This document shows, in pieces, positions 3,668-50,049 of a stretch of 64,000 nt of DNA. The notes under the pieces were generated by a model. It did not search any database, had not been told where the DNA came from, and worked only from the letters and a program-made list of their open reading frames with translations. Where the stretch lies: the NCBI GenBank assembly GCA_946553025.1, contig CAMNRM010000020.1:1-64000 (forward strand), written 5' to 3'. Source of the DNA: an uncultured Clostridium sp. Its GTDB lineage: Bacteria > Bacillota > Clostridia > Lachnospirales > Lachnospiraceae. Position 1 is the first letter of the stretch, and every line of letters begins with the position of its first letter. A program made the translations under genes and the position numbers.

Positions 3668-5350
3668 ATGAAACAGAAAACATGGAAACGGATAATGGCA
3701 GCAGGGCTTGCGCTTGGGATAAGTATTTCATTAGCCGGGTGTGCAGGCGGCAGGAAAACGATTAATGACGGGACGTTCCGCCCGGTGGATAAGGCAGAGC
3801 TTGCATTTCCTTTAAAAGAAAAAACCGTTTTGTCCGGTATGATCAGCTATCCGGCAAATACGGAATCCCAGCCGAATAACCGGACGATCTTTAAGCGGCT
3901 CCAGGAACAGACCAATGTGGAAATTAAGTGGATGGCGATTCAGGCCGACCAGTGGAAGGATAAGATTTCCCTGAACATGTCCGACCCGAATAAGCTTACG
4001 GATTTTATCTTTTCGGCGGACTTTACCGACAGCAACCTCTTAAAATATGCGGAGTACGGTGCTATTATTCCCTTAGAGGAGTATATTGACGCCTACATGC
4101 CCAATCTCAGTGCGGTTTTTCAACAGTATCCTGAGTATCGGGTGATGTGTACCGATGTCAACGGCCATATCTGGTCGCTGCCCTGGATTGAGCAGCTTGG
4201 TTCGGGCAAAACGGCGATTCAGACCGTGGACAATATGAGTTTTATCAATAAGGCATGGCTGGATTTTCTGGGGCTTTCCGTTCCGGAAACGGTGGATGAA
4301 TTTGAACAGGTTCTTATCGCATTCAGGGACAATGCCCAGAGCCTTCAGAAAGAATTTGGAATCGAGGGAAGCATTATTCCGATGTCCTGCATCGTCAATG
4401 ACCCCGGTCAGGACCCGGCGATTTTAATTAACGGTTTTGGCGAAGGCTACGGGGATGCGGACAAGGAACGCCACATTGCGGTTACACAAGATCAGAAAGT
4501 GATCTGCAGCGCAGTGCAGGAAGGATATAAGGACGGGATTTCGTGGCTGCACAAGCTGTACGAGGAAGGTTTGATTGACCCGGAAGCCTTTACCCAGGTG
4601 TGGTCAACCTATGTATCTAAAGGAAAATCCGGGCGTTACGGCGTCTGCTTTACCTGGGATGTGGGCAATGTCGCCAACTTAAAGGACTGGGTTCCCCTTC
4701 CGGTACTGACTGCGGATACCCGAAACTTAACTCCCGTAAACGGTTCCTTTACCAGCGGATTTAACCGCGGACGCTGCGTGGTCACTTCCGTGGCGGAAAA
4801 TCCTGCCCTGGTCTGCGCGTGGCTGGATCAGATGTACGCGCCGATGCAGTCCCCGCAGAATAACTGGGGAACCTATGGCGAGGATGATGATTTTGATATT
4901 TTCGAGATGGGGGAAAATGAACAGGGTGAGCCGATGTTAAAACATGCACCGTTAGGTGACGCTTCCCCGGTGGAAGTAAGAGAAGCCGAAGCGGTGGGCG
5001 GCCCTCTGGCAGTTCTTGACGACTATTACGGCGTTTACGTGACCTGCCCGGACGACGCACAGTACCGTCTGGACTGGATTAAAGAATATTATACCCCGGA
5101 TATGCACACCGAAAATGTATACCCCAATATTTTTATGAGCCGCGAGGACACGGAAACTTTATCGAACCTCCAGGCAGATATTAAAAAGGCAATCAATGCT
5201 AAAAAAGCCGACTGGATCATGAACGGGTTTACGGATGCGGACTGGGATGAGTACTTAAAGAGCCTTGAAGCTTACGGACTGAGCGAATATCTGGAGCTGT
5301 TCCAGAAATATCTGGATAATTACAATGCAAGTACGGCAGCGGAAAAATAA
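3668..5350 (+). CDS. Extracellular sugar-binding lipoprotein of ABC transporter
   Basis: A 560-residue solute-binding protein of the large LipO/YtcQ type that partners LplB/LplC permeases. It has a lipoprotein signal peptide with lipobox LAGC and the lipid-anchored Cys at residue 25, so it should be tethered outside the membrane. The rest is a bilobal binding fold of normal length for this subfamily (TNVEIKWMAIQADQWKDKI near the start). It should capture the oligosaccharide later cleaved by the adjacent GH32 enzyme. The start at 3668 follows GGAAGAAGGAGAAG. The stop region is duplicated: a 16-bp sequence including the stop codon is repeated 3 bp downstream (5335-5350 and 5354-5369). Confidence 0.92.
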   Translation: MKQKTWKRIMAAGLALGISISLAGCAGGRKTINDGTFRPVDKAELAFPLKEKTVLSGMISYPANTESQPNNRTIFKRLQEQTNVEIKWMAIQADQWKDKISLNMSDPNKLTDFIFSADFTDSNLLKYAEYGAIIPLEEYIDAYMPNLSAVFQQYPEYRVMCTDVNGHIWSLPWIEQLGSGKTAIQTVDNMSFINKAWLDFLGLSVPETVDEFEQVLIAFRDNAQSLQKEFGIEGSIIPMSCIVNDPGQDPAILINGFGEGYGDADKERHIAVTQDQKVICSAVQEGYKDGISWLHKLYEEGLIDPEAFTQVWSTYVSKGKSGRYGVCFTWDVGNVANLKDWVPLPVLTADTRNLTPVNGSFTSGFNRGRCVVTSVAENPALVCAWLDQMYAPMQSPQNNWGTYGEDDDFDIFEMGENEQGEPMLKHAPLGDASPVEVREAEAVGGPLAVLDDYYGVYVTCPDDAQYRLDWIKEYYTPDMHTENVYPNIFMSREDTETLSNLQADIKKAINAKKADWIMNGFTDADWDEYLKSLEAYGLSEYLELFQKYLDNYNASTAAEK

Positions 5351-47335: not shown

Positions 47336-48076
47336 ATGATAGTAAAGGTTTCTGTTCCAAGCCGGTTTCAGTGGAAAACCCGGCAGACTTTCCGAACCAT
47401 GTTGATGAAGAAGGAAGGGGAAATTCATTACATAGGGGGAGCGGATATCCTGCCGGCTCCTTTAGACAGCGAAACCGAACAGGAAATGATTGAAAAGCTG
47501 GTCGGACCGGAGGAGAAGGAGGCGCGGTCGAAGCTGATTGAGCACAATCTCCGGCTGGTGGTGTATATTGCCAAGAAATTTGATAATACGGCGGTTGGGG
47601 TGGAGGATTTGATTTCCATCGGGACAATTGGGCTGATTAAGGCGATTAATACGTTTAATCCGGGGAAGAATATTAAGCTGGCAACCTATGCTTCGCGGTG
47701 TATTGAGAATGAGATTTTGATGTATCTGCGGCGGACGAATAAGACGAAGATGGAGGTTTCCATCGATGAGCCGCTGAATGTGGACTGGGATGGGAATGAA
47801 CTGCTTTTGTCGGATATTTTGGGGACGGATGAAGATGTGATTTACAAGGATCTGGAGATGGAAACGGAGAAAGGGCTTTTAAATGCAGCGATAAATCGCT
47901 TAAATCCCAGGGAGAGGAAGATTGTGGAGCTGAGGTTTGGGCTGAATAATGAGGAAGGGGATGAGATGACGCAGAAGGAGGTTGCGGATTTGCTGGGGAT
48001 TTCGCAGTCGTATATATCGCGGTTGGAGAAGAAGATTATGAAGAGGCTGAAGAAGGAGATTGTGAGGTTTGAGTAG
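47336..48076 (+). CDS. sigE: Sporulation sigma factor SigE (pro-sigma-E)
   Basis: 246 residues. It has a pro-sequence ending around [14 protein letters not shown], the region where SpoIIGA cleaves. Region 2 ([37 protein letters not shown]) and region 4 ([31 protein letters not shown]) are intact. It directs early mother-cell gene expression in sporulation. The start at 47336 follows TTAGGAGGA. From about 47540 on the plus strand becomes notably richer in G at third positions than upstream genes. Confidence 0.96.
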
Positions 48077-48100
48077 GGGGCCGGGTGGGGCCTCCTTTTT
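48075..48100 (+). terminator. Terminator after sigE
   Basis: AGGGGGCC (48075-48082) pairs with GGCCTCCT (48089-48096) with one G-T pair and a 6-nt loop, followed by TTTT; it begins at the sigE stop codon. Confidence 0.7.
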
Positions 48101-48112
48101 CTGTGGGGGAAT

Positions 48113-48215
48113 GAGGTCCGTCTGGTTTGTTGGGGAGATTTTGGGGGATTGGGGGGTGAAGTGCGTTTGGTTTGTCGGAGAGGTTGGGGAGAATGGAGAA
48201 GTGAAGTCCGTCCGC
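48113..48215 (+). repeat. G-rich 45-bp tandem repeat
   Basis: GAGGTCCG (48113), GAAGTGCG (48158) and GAAGTCCG (48203) start successive units exactly 45 bp apart, each followed by TCTGGTTTGT/TTTGGTTTGT and G-runs. About 2.2 copies. The second to third junction runs into structured element copy 1. Confidence 0.75.
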
Positions 48216-48218
48216 TCC

Positions 48219-48344
48219 GGCAGGGCCTATTCCAACGTCACCGCGCTTTCGCTCCGTTCCACACGTAGCGGACACTAAACTCGTGAGAAACCTCGTTAAG
48301 TGCCGACGTGTTCCAAGGGGATTCCTTATGGAACAGGCCCTGCC
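48219..48344 (+). repeat. Structured inverted-repeat element, copy 1
   Basis: 126 bp. GGCAGGGCCT (48219-48228) pairs perfectly with AGGCCCTGCC (48335-48344), then TTCCA (48230-48234) with TGGAA (48329-48333). Inside, ACACGT (48261-48266) pairs with ACGTGT (48306-48311) and CACT (48273-48276) with AGTG (48299-48302). A related copy with different but still pairing stems lies at 48496-48622 in the opposite orientation. It could be a non-coding RNA or a MITE-like mobile repeat. Confidence 0.8.
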
Positions 48345-48495
48345 TGCGCTGCAATGTAAGCTAACGAGTGATAATTAATCTTTGCTGCTTTATTTTTTTA
48401 GTTATTTAACTGGCAGTAAATTCTGTTTAAAAGATTTTTAGACGATTTTTAGGTTGGTAGAAGGAGAATTATTTTTAGTTAGTATAGCAGCGGAA
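48345..48495. other. AT-rich spacer between the two structured elements
   Basis: About 150 bp of AT-rich DNA with TAAGCTAACGAG-like and T-run stretches. No gene or clear promoter is seen. Confidence 0.4.
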
Positions 48496-48622
48496 GCAGA
48501 ACCATATTCCGTGAGGAATCCCCTCAAAAAACGCCGGCGCTTAACGAGGTTTTTTCGAGTTTAGCGTCCGCTGCGTTCTTTTGCGGAGCGAGAGCGCGGT
48601 GACGACGGAATATGGCTCTGCT
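48496..48622 (-). repeat. Structured inverted-repeat element, copy 2
   Basis: 127 bp, homologous to copy 1 when read on the minus strand. GCAGAACCATATTCCGT (48496-48512) pairs with ACGGAATATGGCTCTGC (48605-48621), 16 of 17 matched. The inner stems are GCGTT/AACGC (48573-48577 with 48530-48534) and AGCG/CGCT (48563-48566 with 48538-48541). Blocks such as TCACCGCGCT, TCGCTCCG, AAACCTCGTTAAG and GGGGATTCC are identical to copy 1. Confidence 0.8.
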
Positions 48623-48960
48623 GTAGCGGAAAAGCATGTCAAAATTCAAAAAACATATAAAATTTTTAAACACTAGGCAAATTTTAGTAATGATTTGACA
48701 TTTTACCATAACCTCAATTTATACTACCAATTCCAATCTTGTATATTTACGGTGAAAAAAATCGCCTCTACTTGTTGAAATTCTGCGGTAAATGATTTAT
48801 TATGGTAAGAACGATGCTTCTGACGGGTTATGCAGGAAAGTTATGGAAGGGTGATCCGTTAGAGGGTGCAGGATGGTTGGCGTGAATCTTGTACGGCTGG
48901 GGCTGCCTGCATTATTGCTGATCGTATAGTATTGATAGTACATAGAAGGAGAATGAAGAG
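48623..48960 (+). promoter_or_regulatory. leuB upstream region with promoter
   Basis: 338 bp. TTGAAA (48775-48780), 17-bp spacer, TATTAT (48798-48803) is the likely leuB promoter, leaving a ~155-nt leader. The leader shows no T-box or clear terminator hairpin; a 23-codon frame in it is not convincing. Confidence 0.55.
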
Positions 48961-50049
48961 ATGAATTATCATATAGCAGTGATTCCCGGTGATGGTATCG
49001 GGCCGGAGATTGTCAGGGAAGCTTGTAAGGTTTTGGATAAGGTTGGAGATGTGTTCGGGCATCAGTTTTCCTATGAAGAGGTTTTGATGGGAGGGTGTTC
49101 GATTGATGTGCATGGGGTTCCGCTGACGGATGAGGCTTTGGAAACAGCGAAAAAGAGTGACTCGGTGCTTTTGGGAGCCGTGGGCGGTGATGTGGGGAAC
49201 TCACGGTGGTATGATGTGGCACCGAATCTTCGGCCGGAGGCAGGGCTTTTGGCGATTCGCAAGGGGCTGAATTTGTTTGCGAATATTCGGCCGGCGTATT
49301 TGTACCGGGAGCTTGCGGATGCCTGTCCTTTGAAGAGGGAGATTATCGGGGACGGTTTCGATATGGTGATTATGCGGGAACTGACCGGGGGGCTGTATTT
49401 TGGCGAGAGGCACACCGAGGTTGTGGATGGGCTGCGGACGGCGGTGGATACGCTTACTTATAATGAAGAGGAGATTCGCAGGATTGCGGTGAAGGCATTT
49501 GATATTGCCATGAAGAGAAGGAAGAGCGTAATCAGCGTGGATAAGGCAAATGTTTTGGATTCTTCGAGGCTTTGGAGGAAGGTTGTGGAGGAAGTGGCGA
49601 AGGATTATCCTGAGGTTTCCTTAAAGCACATGCTGGTGGATAATTGCGCGATGCAGCTGGTGATGAATCCGGGGCAGTTTGATGTGATTTTGACGGAAAA
49701 TATGTTTGGAGATATTTTGTCGGATGAGGCGAGTATGATTACGGGGTCGATTGGGATGCTTTCCTCGGCGAGCATGAATGAGAGCAAGTTTGGGCTGTAT
49801 GAGCCAAGCCACGGGTCGGCACCGGATATTGCGGGGAAGGATGCGGCGAATCCGATTGCGACGATTCTTTCGGCGGCGATGATGCTTCGCTATTCGTTTG
49901 ATTTGGATAAGGAGGCAGATGCCGTGGAAAGGGCAGTGCAGAAGGTTCTGACGGAAGGTATCCGCACAGGGGATATTTATTCGGAAGGATGCACGAAGGT
50001 TGGATGTGCGGCAATGGGGGATTGCATTGCCGAGAGGATTTGCAGGTAA
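48961..50049 (+). CDS. leuB: 3-isopropylmalate dehydrogenase
   Basis: 362 residues, standard length. [11 protein letters not shown] at the N-terminus, [13 protein letters not shown] in the middle, and [15 protein letters not shown], with [24 protein letters not shown] near the substrate/metal site and [22 protein letters not shown] close to the C-terminus. It oxidises and decarboxylates 3-isopropylmalate with NAD in leucine synthesis. The start at 48961 follows AGAAGGAGAATG. leuA, leuC and leuD are not in the window; ilvD and ilvB follow in the same direction. Confidence 0.97.

Follow-up and report, generated by a model that had tools for sequence, protein, structure and literature searches.

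A dispersed family of facing, structure-conserved palindromic units in Lachnospiraceae genomes that may be REPIN-like mobile DNA

What are two inverted copies of a palindromic, covarying sequence doing in a gene-free gap of a Lachnospiraceae genome, and is it RNA or DNA that their fold serves? The window analysed here is a stretch of 64,000 nucleotides from an uncultured Clostridium sp. (contig CAMNRM010000020.1, positions 1 to 64,000), in which a gap of ~880 bp separates two genes named after NCBIfam matches, sigE (ending at 48076) and leuB (starting at 48961). The gap is home to both copies and contains only short mechanical open reading frames of 61-84 aa, in keeping with the initial annotation, which had called the copies non-coding. 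The two inverted homologous copies are where that annotation had placed them, as judged from the sequence and from a repeat search that returned long inverted matches linking one copy with the other. Its bounds were slightly too narrow: the covariance model R1, whose building alignment included both copies, gives 48212-48351 on the plus strand for copy 1 (type A, 141 bits) and 48488-48629 on the minus strand for copy 2 (type B, 147.8 bits). By these coordinates the 3' ends of the copies point at each other across a spacer of 136 bp (48352-48487, delimited by sequence, R1 bounds and pair geometry), the middle of which aligns poorly with the corresponding spacers in the three remaining pairs of the genome.

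A single unit measures ~140 nt and is imperfectly palindromic. In copy 1, all on the plus strand, the sequence, the repeat search and folding define an outer stem P1 with a 5' arm GGCAGGGCCTATTCCA at 48219-48234 (repeat match 48214-48234) and a 3' arm TGGAACAGGCCCTGCC at 48329-48344 (repeat match 48329-48349). Between the arms lie the junction box CGCTTTCGCT at 48244-48253, an instance of the family-wide motif CGCTNNCGCT; an inner hairpin P2 at 48261-48311, with an AG bulge, an A bulge, an A.A mismatch and an apical loop, delimited by alignment, covariation and DNA fold; and a conserved 3' junction GGGGATTCC at 48317-48325, identified from sequence and folding, which some folds place within a small hairpin. 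Copy 2, on the minus strand, has its P1 arms at 48605-48622 (5') and 48495-48512 (3') by sequence and repeat search, its junction box CGCTCTCGCT, conserved across the family, at 48587-48596, and its P2 at 48530-48577 by sequence, alignment and folding. Between the two copies the stems have changed in both arms together, as described at the outset. The segments listed as lying outside the stems are indeed identical, although two of them, CTAAACTCG and AAACCTCGTTAAG, are partly paired in the inner helix (CT..AAC with GTT..AG), and these pairs co-vary among the copies of the genome as AAC/GTT, AGC/GCT, GGT/ACC and AAT/ATT. Both strands of both copies fold better than 200 of 200 shuffled sequences, with RNA parameters (z -4.0 to -6.1) as well as with DNA parameters (z -3.9 to -5.8).

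The observation that two related elements face each other is correct and too modest, as the copies belong to a dispersed family. Searching the genome with copy 1 as a DNA query gives 48 places at E <=10, the first 28 of which, counting copy 1 itself, are at least 75% identical over 118 or more of 146 bases. R1, built from 23 of those 28 places, finds 32 places in the same genome, one of which also gives a match on the antisense strand. Further copies exist in other Lachnospiraceae as well: R1 has matches in 122 of 397 genomes of the family (94 of the 319 that are of high quality; 106 of the 334 genera), figures that record presence only and are a lower bound, since at most eight candidates per genome were scored and the filters were strict. 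In a class-wide draw R1 matches seven of 391 genomes, all seven of them Lachnospiraceae, and none of eight loci outside the family that carry the exact core pattern matched R1 (L147, L151 and L158 left out). The 20-base core pattern has no exact match in viral contigs. A plasmid or phage origin was considered and set aside, as a search at blastn sensitivity with one copy from the own genome (L004) matched no annotated plasmid or phage. We found no description of the family in titles and abstracts among the literature matches listed, nor by searching the main text of PMC8040213, the likeliest place, for relevant terms.

Genomes differ widely in copy number, from zero to 150 or more. In genome G016 all of the 150 scored candidates matched (E <=0.01), so that its count is at least 150. 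Full scoring at the same threshold gives 74 copies in G398, 62 in G397 (whose match coordinates are those of the congener G406), 36 in G180, 28 in G399 and 20 in G057, with lower counts in G008 (14), G041 (10), G391 (8), G304 (4) and G232 (3). Among 11 congeners, own genome first, the counts at E <=0.001 are 32, 0, 0, 0, 2, 16, 6, 17, 60, 12 and 25, and the three genomes with zero copies are 88-97% complete. This distribution bears on the proposal that the unit is a chromosomal site kept for the benefit of the host, for instance a site for gyrase, a nucleoid protein, replication restart or attC-like recombination. Conserved single-stranded boxes and bulges and the wide occurrence in Lachnospiraceae are what such a site would lead one to expect; counts that vary between none and 150 or more, with no copy found in three of 11 congeners, are easier to reconcile with a mobile element than with a site that is essential, and we regard the proposal as very improbable. 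As a separate matter, the CATOJE assembly (L061, L065, L072 and others) has many core-motif matches within ~150 bases of contig ends, which suggests that the repeat breaks the assembly and that the true copy number is above the count.

The fold is maintained across the family. Over the modelled stretch, 117 of 126 distinct copies measure 135-157 nt. In an alignment of 28 copies from the own genome that was not fitted to a structure, both sides have changed in 22 of 39 predicted pairs. In the 126 distinct copies, whose alignment was fitted to R1 and therefore leans towards structure, 93.1% of 5175 cells are paired and 41 of 42 pairs show both-side change. The number of cells changed on both sides is 1369, compared with 346.9±22.1 in shuffled and 198-217 in slid controls; such counts are inflated by related copies. 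The slid controls agree with this, as does the earlier alignment made without fitting. Nearly every pair of the outer stem occurs as all four Watson-Crick types, so its sequence is almost free, and in the inner hairpin the AG bulge, the A bulge and the A.A mismatch are largely retained. The junction motif is present in 118 of 126 copies, these copies having been found with a model that contains the box, and the opposite side of the junction is conserved as AGG/GGGG. Together, covariation and junction motif strongly support the claim that both the fold and its conserved unpaired bases are being maintained: the element's shape is preserved more than its letters. There are local elaborations of the same plan. 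In other genomes the junctions can pair further, as in G016 (GAAGCC with GGCTTC, GAAACC with GGTTTC), and the apical loop sometimes carries an extra hairpin. We also observed that at L029, L030, L234 and L235 the inner hairpin has an additional arm of ~70 nt, the ends of which resemble the CTAA..CTCG and CCTCGYTAAG of the unit, as if one unit lay within another. At L201 (~1501-1639) a copy is centred, as judged by eye, in an inverted repeat that reaches at least ~50 bp into both flanks and is either an assembly foldback or a larger palindrome.

The facing arrangement of the window pair is the rule among close neighbours of the family. Among neighbouring copies less than 600 bp apart, 36 of 37 cases are convergent, one is tandem and none is divergent; within 1500 bp the numbers are 36 convergent, two tandem and one divergent. 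These counts come from 184 listed places in nine genomes (the own genome and eight others, with 57 of the 60 copies of G406 and with G016, G398 and G399 left out), and the convergent spacers measure 26-511 bp. All four pairs in the own genome combine one type A with one type B unit. Five aligned pairs from G406 have homologous units and homologous spacer ends, the spacer middles vary in length, and the pairs include an additional conserved stretch of ~200 bp with short repeats.

The initial annotation had left the choice between a functional RNA and a transposable hairpin recognised by a protein. The first of these would be a structured RNA in 3' untranslated regions, acting in stability, termination or regulation and copied around the genome. 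Strong covariation and good folding as RNA speak for it, and so does gene context: the gene on the 5' side of the element is co-directional in 37 of 58 copies, and in 30 of the 37 the stop codon of that gene lies within 100 nt, an arrangement compatible with a role as RNA. The 3'-side gene is directed towards the copy in 26 of 58 cases, eight of 57 copies lie between divergent genes, and a called open reading frame overlaps the copy in nine of 59 stretches. By these counts, which rest on simple open reading frame calling and include subclass E (described below), copies are mostly intergenic and slightly favour the ends of genes. In the sigE-leuB gap, two terminator-like sites occur, at 48077-48094 and 48751-48766, both external to the copies; an intrinsic terminator (GC hairpin and T run) was looked for inside either copy and rejected, which weighs against the RNA reading.

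The types of mispairing tolerated in the stems offer a further test. In a strand-specific RNA, G·U is expected far above A·C. The signal recognition particle (SRP) RNA behaves in this manner, with 199 GU (20.5%) and 2 AC (0.2%) among 969 cells from 12 genomes of the same family (it was found in 13 of the 14 genomes searched, and one partial match was left out). In the main stems of the element, defined as the 33 outer and inner pairs that are each at least 80% Watson-Crick, there are 54 G·T and 76 A·C among 4082 cells (outer stem, 28 G·T and 58 A·C of 2089; inner stem, 26 G·T and 18 A·C of 1993). Passed through the SRP pipeline, the element gives 4.0% GU and 3.3% AC with 13 sequences and 3.5% and 3.1% with 98. 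Over all 42 modelled pairs G·T rises to 208 and A·C to 162 of 5175; half of the G·T (105) comes from a weak helix at the junction, one column pair of which is T/G almost throughout (103 of 119), and two of the junction helices may not truly be paired. As SRP RNA is a single-copy gene and the one control family, the comparison is suggestive and not final, and what it suggests is that the constraint acts on DNA, or on both strands alike. That both strands fold well is also unfavourable to a strand-specific RNA, and so are the comparisons with Rfam: at the gathering threshold there is no match in the window, nor does any fall on the element across 14 loci, and a relaxed scan of the gap returns one match, rli45 (E 7.4), which lies in the spacer and not in the copies. 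With the main stems free of a G·U excess over A·C where the control has an excess of about a hundredfold, the RNA half of the original alternative is disfavoured, and we consider a 3' untranslated region RNA distinctly unlikely. As an observation of its own, a TwoAYGGAY RNA (RF01731, 116.7 bits) at L122:3737-3902 on the minus strand has a copy of the element fewer than 100 bp away, at 3987-4127 on the same strand, one such case in the 14 loci searched.

The hairpin half of the alternative has the dispersal, the facing doublets and the copy numbers of 0-60 among congeners on its side, and also the evidence for mobility. In six of ten congeners (L295, L300-L304) sigE and leuB are adjacent, as judged by eye, and R1 finds no copy in the stretches examined; in L299 a copy is truncated by the contig end, and L296 and L298 are uninformative for the comparison. 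A further stretch, L297, from downstream of sigE in G406, has by eye a copy whose inner hairpin is split by a palindromic insert; it gives no R1 match and is at another distance from sigE, past three tRNA genes.

Signs of transposition come from a subclass of the own genome, subclass E, the members of which are near-identical, 174 or 244 bp long and bounded by ends of the type GTTAC[T/A]GTTCAC. An 8-bp target duplication flanks six of ten full-length copies (five with 8/8 and one with 7/8 identical bases, the random rate for at least 7/8 being 0.0008), the other four have at most 4/8 or no TIR pair that was found, and three deletion derivatives have no duplication. TIRs together with 8-bp target duplications make subclass E a MITE. 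A second lineage (14 loci of JAAUZ-type and similar records) has a related end, GTTACTTTTCACAC, and duplications of 8/8, 7/8 and 6/8 in three loci, the last of which is weak as four right-end offsets were tried; three more of its loci have the TIR without a duplication, and no TIR pair was detected in the other eight. The target-site duplications that were to be looked for according to the initial annotation exist in subclass E, and none was found by a flank scan, a weak test, at non-E copies, the two of the window included, which also have no GTTACTGTTCAC-type TIR; 20 stretches from G016 have no such TIR or duplication. The scan is a weak test because it also missed the duplications of class E, its positive control. 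In the own genome it gave 0.67 at w 6 compared with a null maximum of 0.54, and a duplication was rejected as the source of this excess once reading of the flanks traced it to the conserved CGCT feet combined with a shift of one base in register.

As a side observation, the own genome contains units of 26-28 bp with ends near GTTACTGT..ACAGTAAC, 20 of them in the stretches read (loci L224, L227, L228, L231:17496-17521, L232:10732-10757, L339, L342 and L352 among their places). Their flanking 8-bp duplications are perfect in eight of the 20, 7/8 in two and at most 5/8 in ten, and their motif has 268 matches in the genome at two or fewer mismatches, compared with 33 for the reversed control. They would be exceptionally small transposed units. 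Related elements of 47-54 bp with the same ends have duplications of 7/8 or 8/8 (L222:135-185, L223:122-175, L233:2355-2401 and L341).

Subclass E and the second lineage invite the interpretation that a DDE transposase moves the whole family as ordinary MITEs, whose arms are kept paired by hairpin-templated repair with no selection on the fold. Equal rarity of G·T and A·C would also be expected from such repair, as it would from selection on an RNA of both strands, and the symmetry in the stems is accordingly a point in favour. Templated repair from arm to arm should erase mismatches and would not keep bulges and junctions, yet the junction box persists in those 118 of 126 copies across genera, as found with the box-containing model; simple arm-to-arm correction would not retain these unpaired bases. 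In addition, most copies, including the 20 stretches from G016, are without TIR or duplication, and the facing pairs are left unexplained. We therefore think it unlikely that this accounts for the family.

If the unit is mobile, an enzyme should recognise it, and the candidate suggested by the known palindromic repeats is the Y1 (RAYT-type) transposase, the one transposase class tested. The host has none, while five of 14 control genomes are positive. Among the 397 genomes, 59 have element and Y1, 63 the element only, 159 Y1 only and 116 neither, with no association between the two (odds ratio 0.68, p 0.10). The possibility allowed for at the outset, a match to a known family with a cognate transposase, has found no backing in these data: Y1 does not track the element and Rfam gives no match. 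Clustering of 608 open reading frames around 141 loci reveals no recurring recombinase; the two widest clusters present in at least three genomes are ABC transporters and histidine kinases (Pfam-confirmed), the others being a response-regulator-like set and genes of shared synteny, mostly named by eye. An enzyme encoded between or beside paired copies was also considered and rejected, the proteins examined being ChW-repeat, GH88-like or below family cut-offs, with no recombinase among them.

How do these elements compare with known systems? REPINs are REPs ordered as inverted doublets (PMC3116915), one REP group forms bulged hairpins (PMC8266576), and REPs are given as palindromes of 20-40 bp (PMC3733652). 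Interspersed palindromic repeats are best known in Proteobacteria, where they are linked to RAYTs (PMC3733652). The element shares with REPINs the interspersed palindromes, the inverted doublets (36/37), the bulged hairpins and the variable copy number, so that a true REP/REPIN family whose RAYT has been lost or missed in some hosts deserves consideration. Against this identity, the unit is ~140 nt with a branched fold rather than 20-40 bp, spacers extend over 26-511 bp, the class draw contained the element in one family, and no Y1 is associated with it, being absent from the host and uncorrelated across the 397 genomes. The foot tags of REPs, GTAG or CGTC or their 3'-end complements, occur in the first or last eight bases of 10 of 126 copies only; CGCT is in the first eight bases of 43 of 126 and in the last eight of 43 of 126, and CGTC and GTAG occur internally in many own-genome units. 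A true REPIN family is, in our judgement, the most improbable of the readings considered.

Among other repeats, MITEs such as ERIC and RU-1 (the latter 127 bp long; PMC2759123) resemble the element in having a length near 130 bp and in being palindromic and dispersed, and they differ in that most copies of the element are without TIR or duplication and its fold outlasts its sequence. In the BIMEs of enterobacteria, palindromic units of two kinds alternate in inverted orientation and are joined by linkers; the element would be set apart from them by size, sequence and host. The attC sites of integrons are imperfect hairpins with extrahelical bases, diverse in sequence and conserved in structure, that are recognised as folded single-stranded DNA. 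Their likeness to the element would be one of analogy; attC sites are in direct order, and the element's copies face each other. What we have is a real family of folded-DNA repeats that is REPIN-like in its order and not in its sequence, size or enzyme.

We thus read the window pair as a facing doublet of a Lachnospiraceae-specific, REPIN-like family of mobile DNA hairpins recognised by their structure, an interpretation to which we would give an even chance of being right. The unit would work as folded DNA, either a single-strand hairpin or a cruciform, and an enzyme acting in trans would read the junction and the bulges. Copies would have spread as a non-autonomous mobile element with the doublet as its usual mobile unit, as is proposed for REPINs, and in two lineages the unit may also be carried within TIR-bounded MITEs moved by another transposase. 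Counting against mobile hairpins of this kind are that no candidate enzyme has emerged and the recognising protein was not found, that no target duplication was found at non-E copies, and that over all pairs G·T (208) exceeds A·C (162). More tentatively, and with rather less than an even chance in our estimate, the family may represent a new class of shape-addressed mobile DNA, in which paired, branched hairpins of ~140 nt with a CGCTNNCGCT junction are moved across the Lachnospiraceae by a recombinase or transposase other than Y1/RAYT.

For the analysis of structured sequences in general, the family is a caution that strong covariation by itself is no proof of RNA. The comparison of G·T with A·C, with an RNA control from the same family of organisms, helps to separate the two readings and can be used on other lists of structured-RNA candidates. 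The repeats probably also break metagenome assemblies, as the contig ends of CATOJE suggest. For the Lachnospiraceae, a gut family is seen to have repeats with a doublet order comparable to that of REPINs, no link to RAYTs and a far larger conserved fold, and the element makes testable the question of which enzyme reads and moves such DNA.
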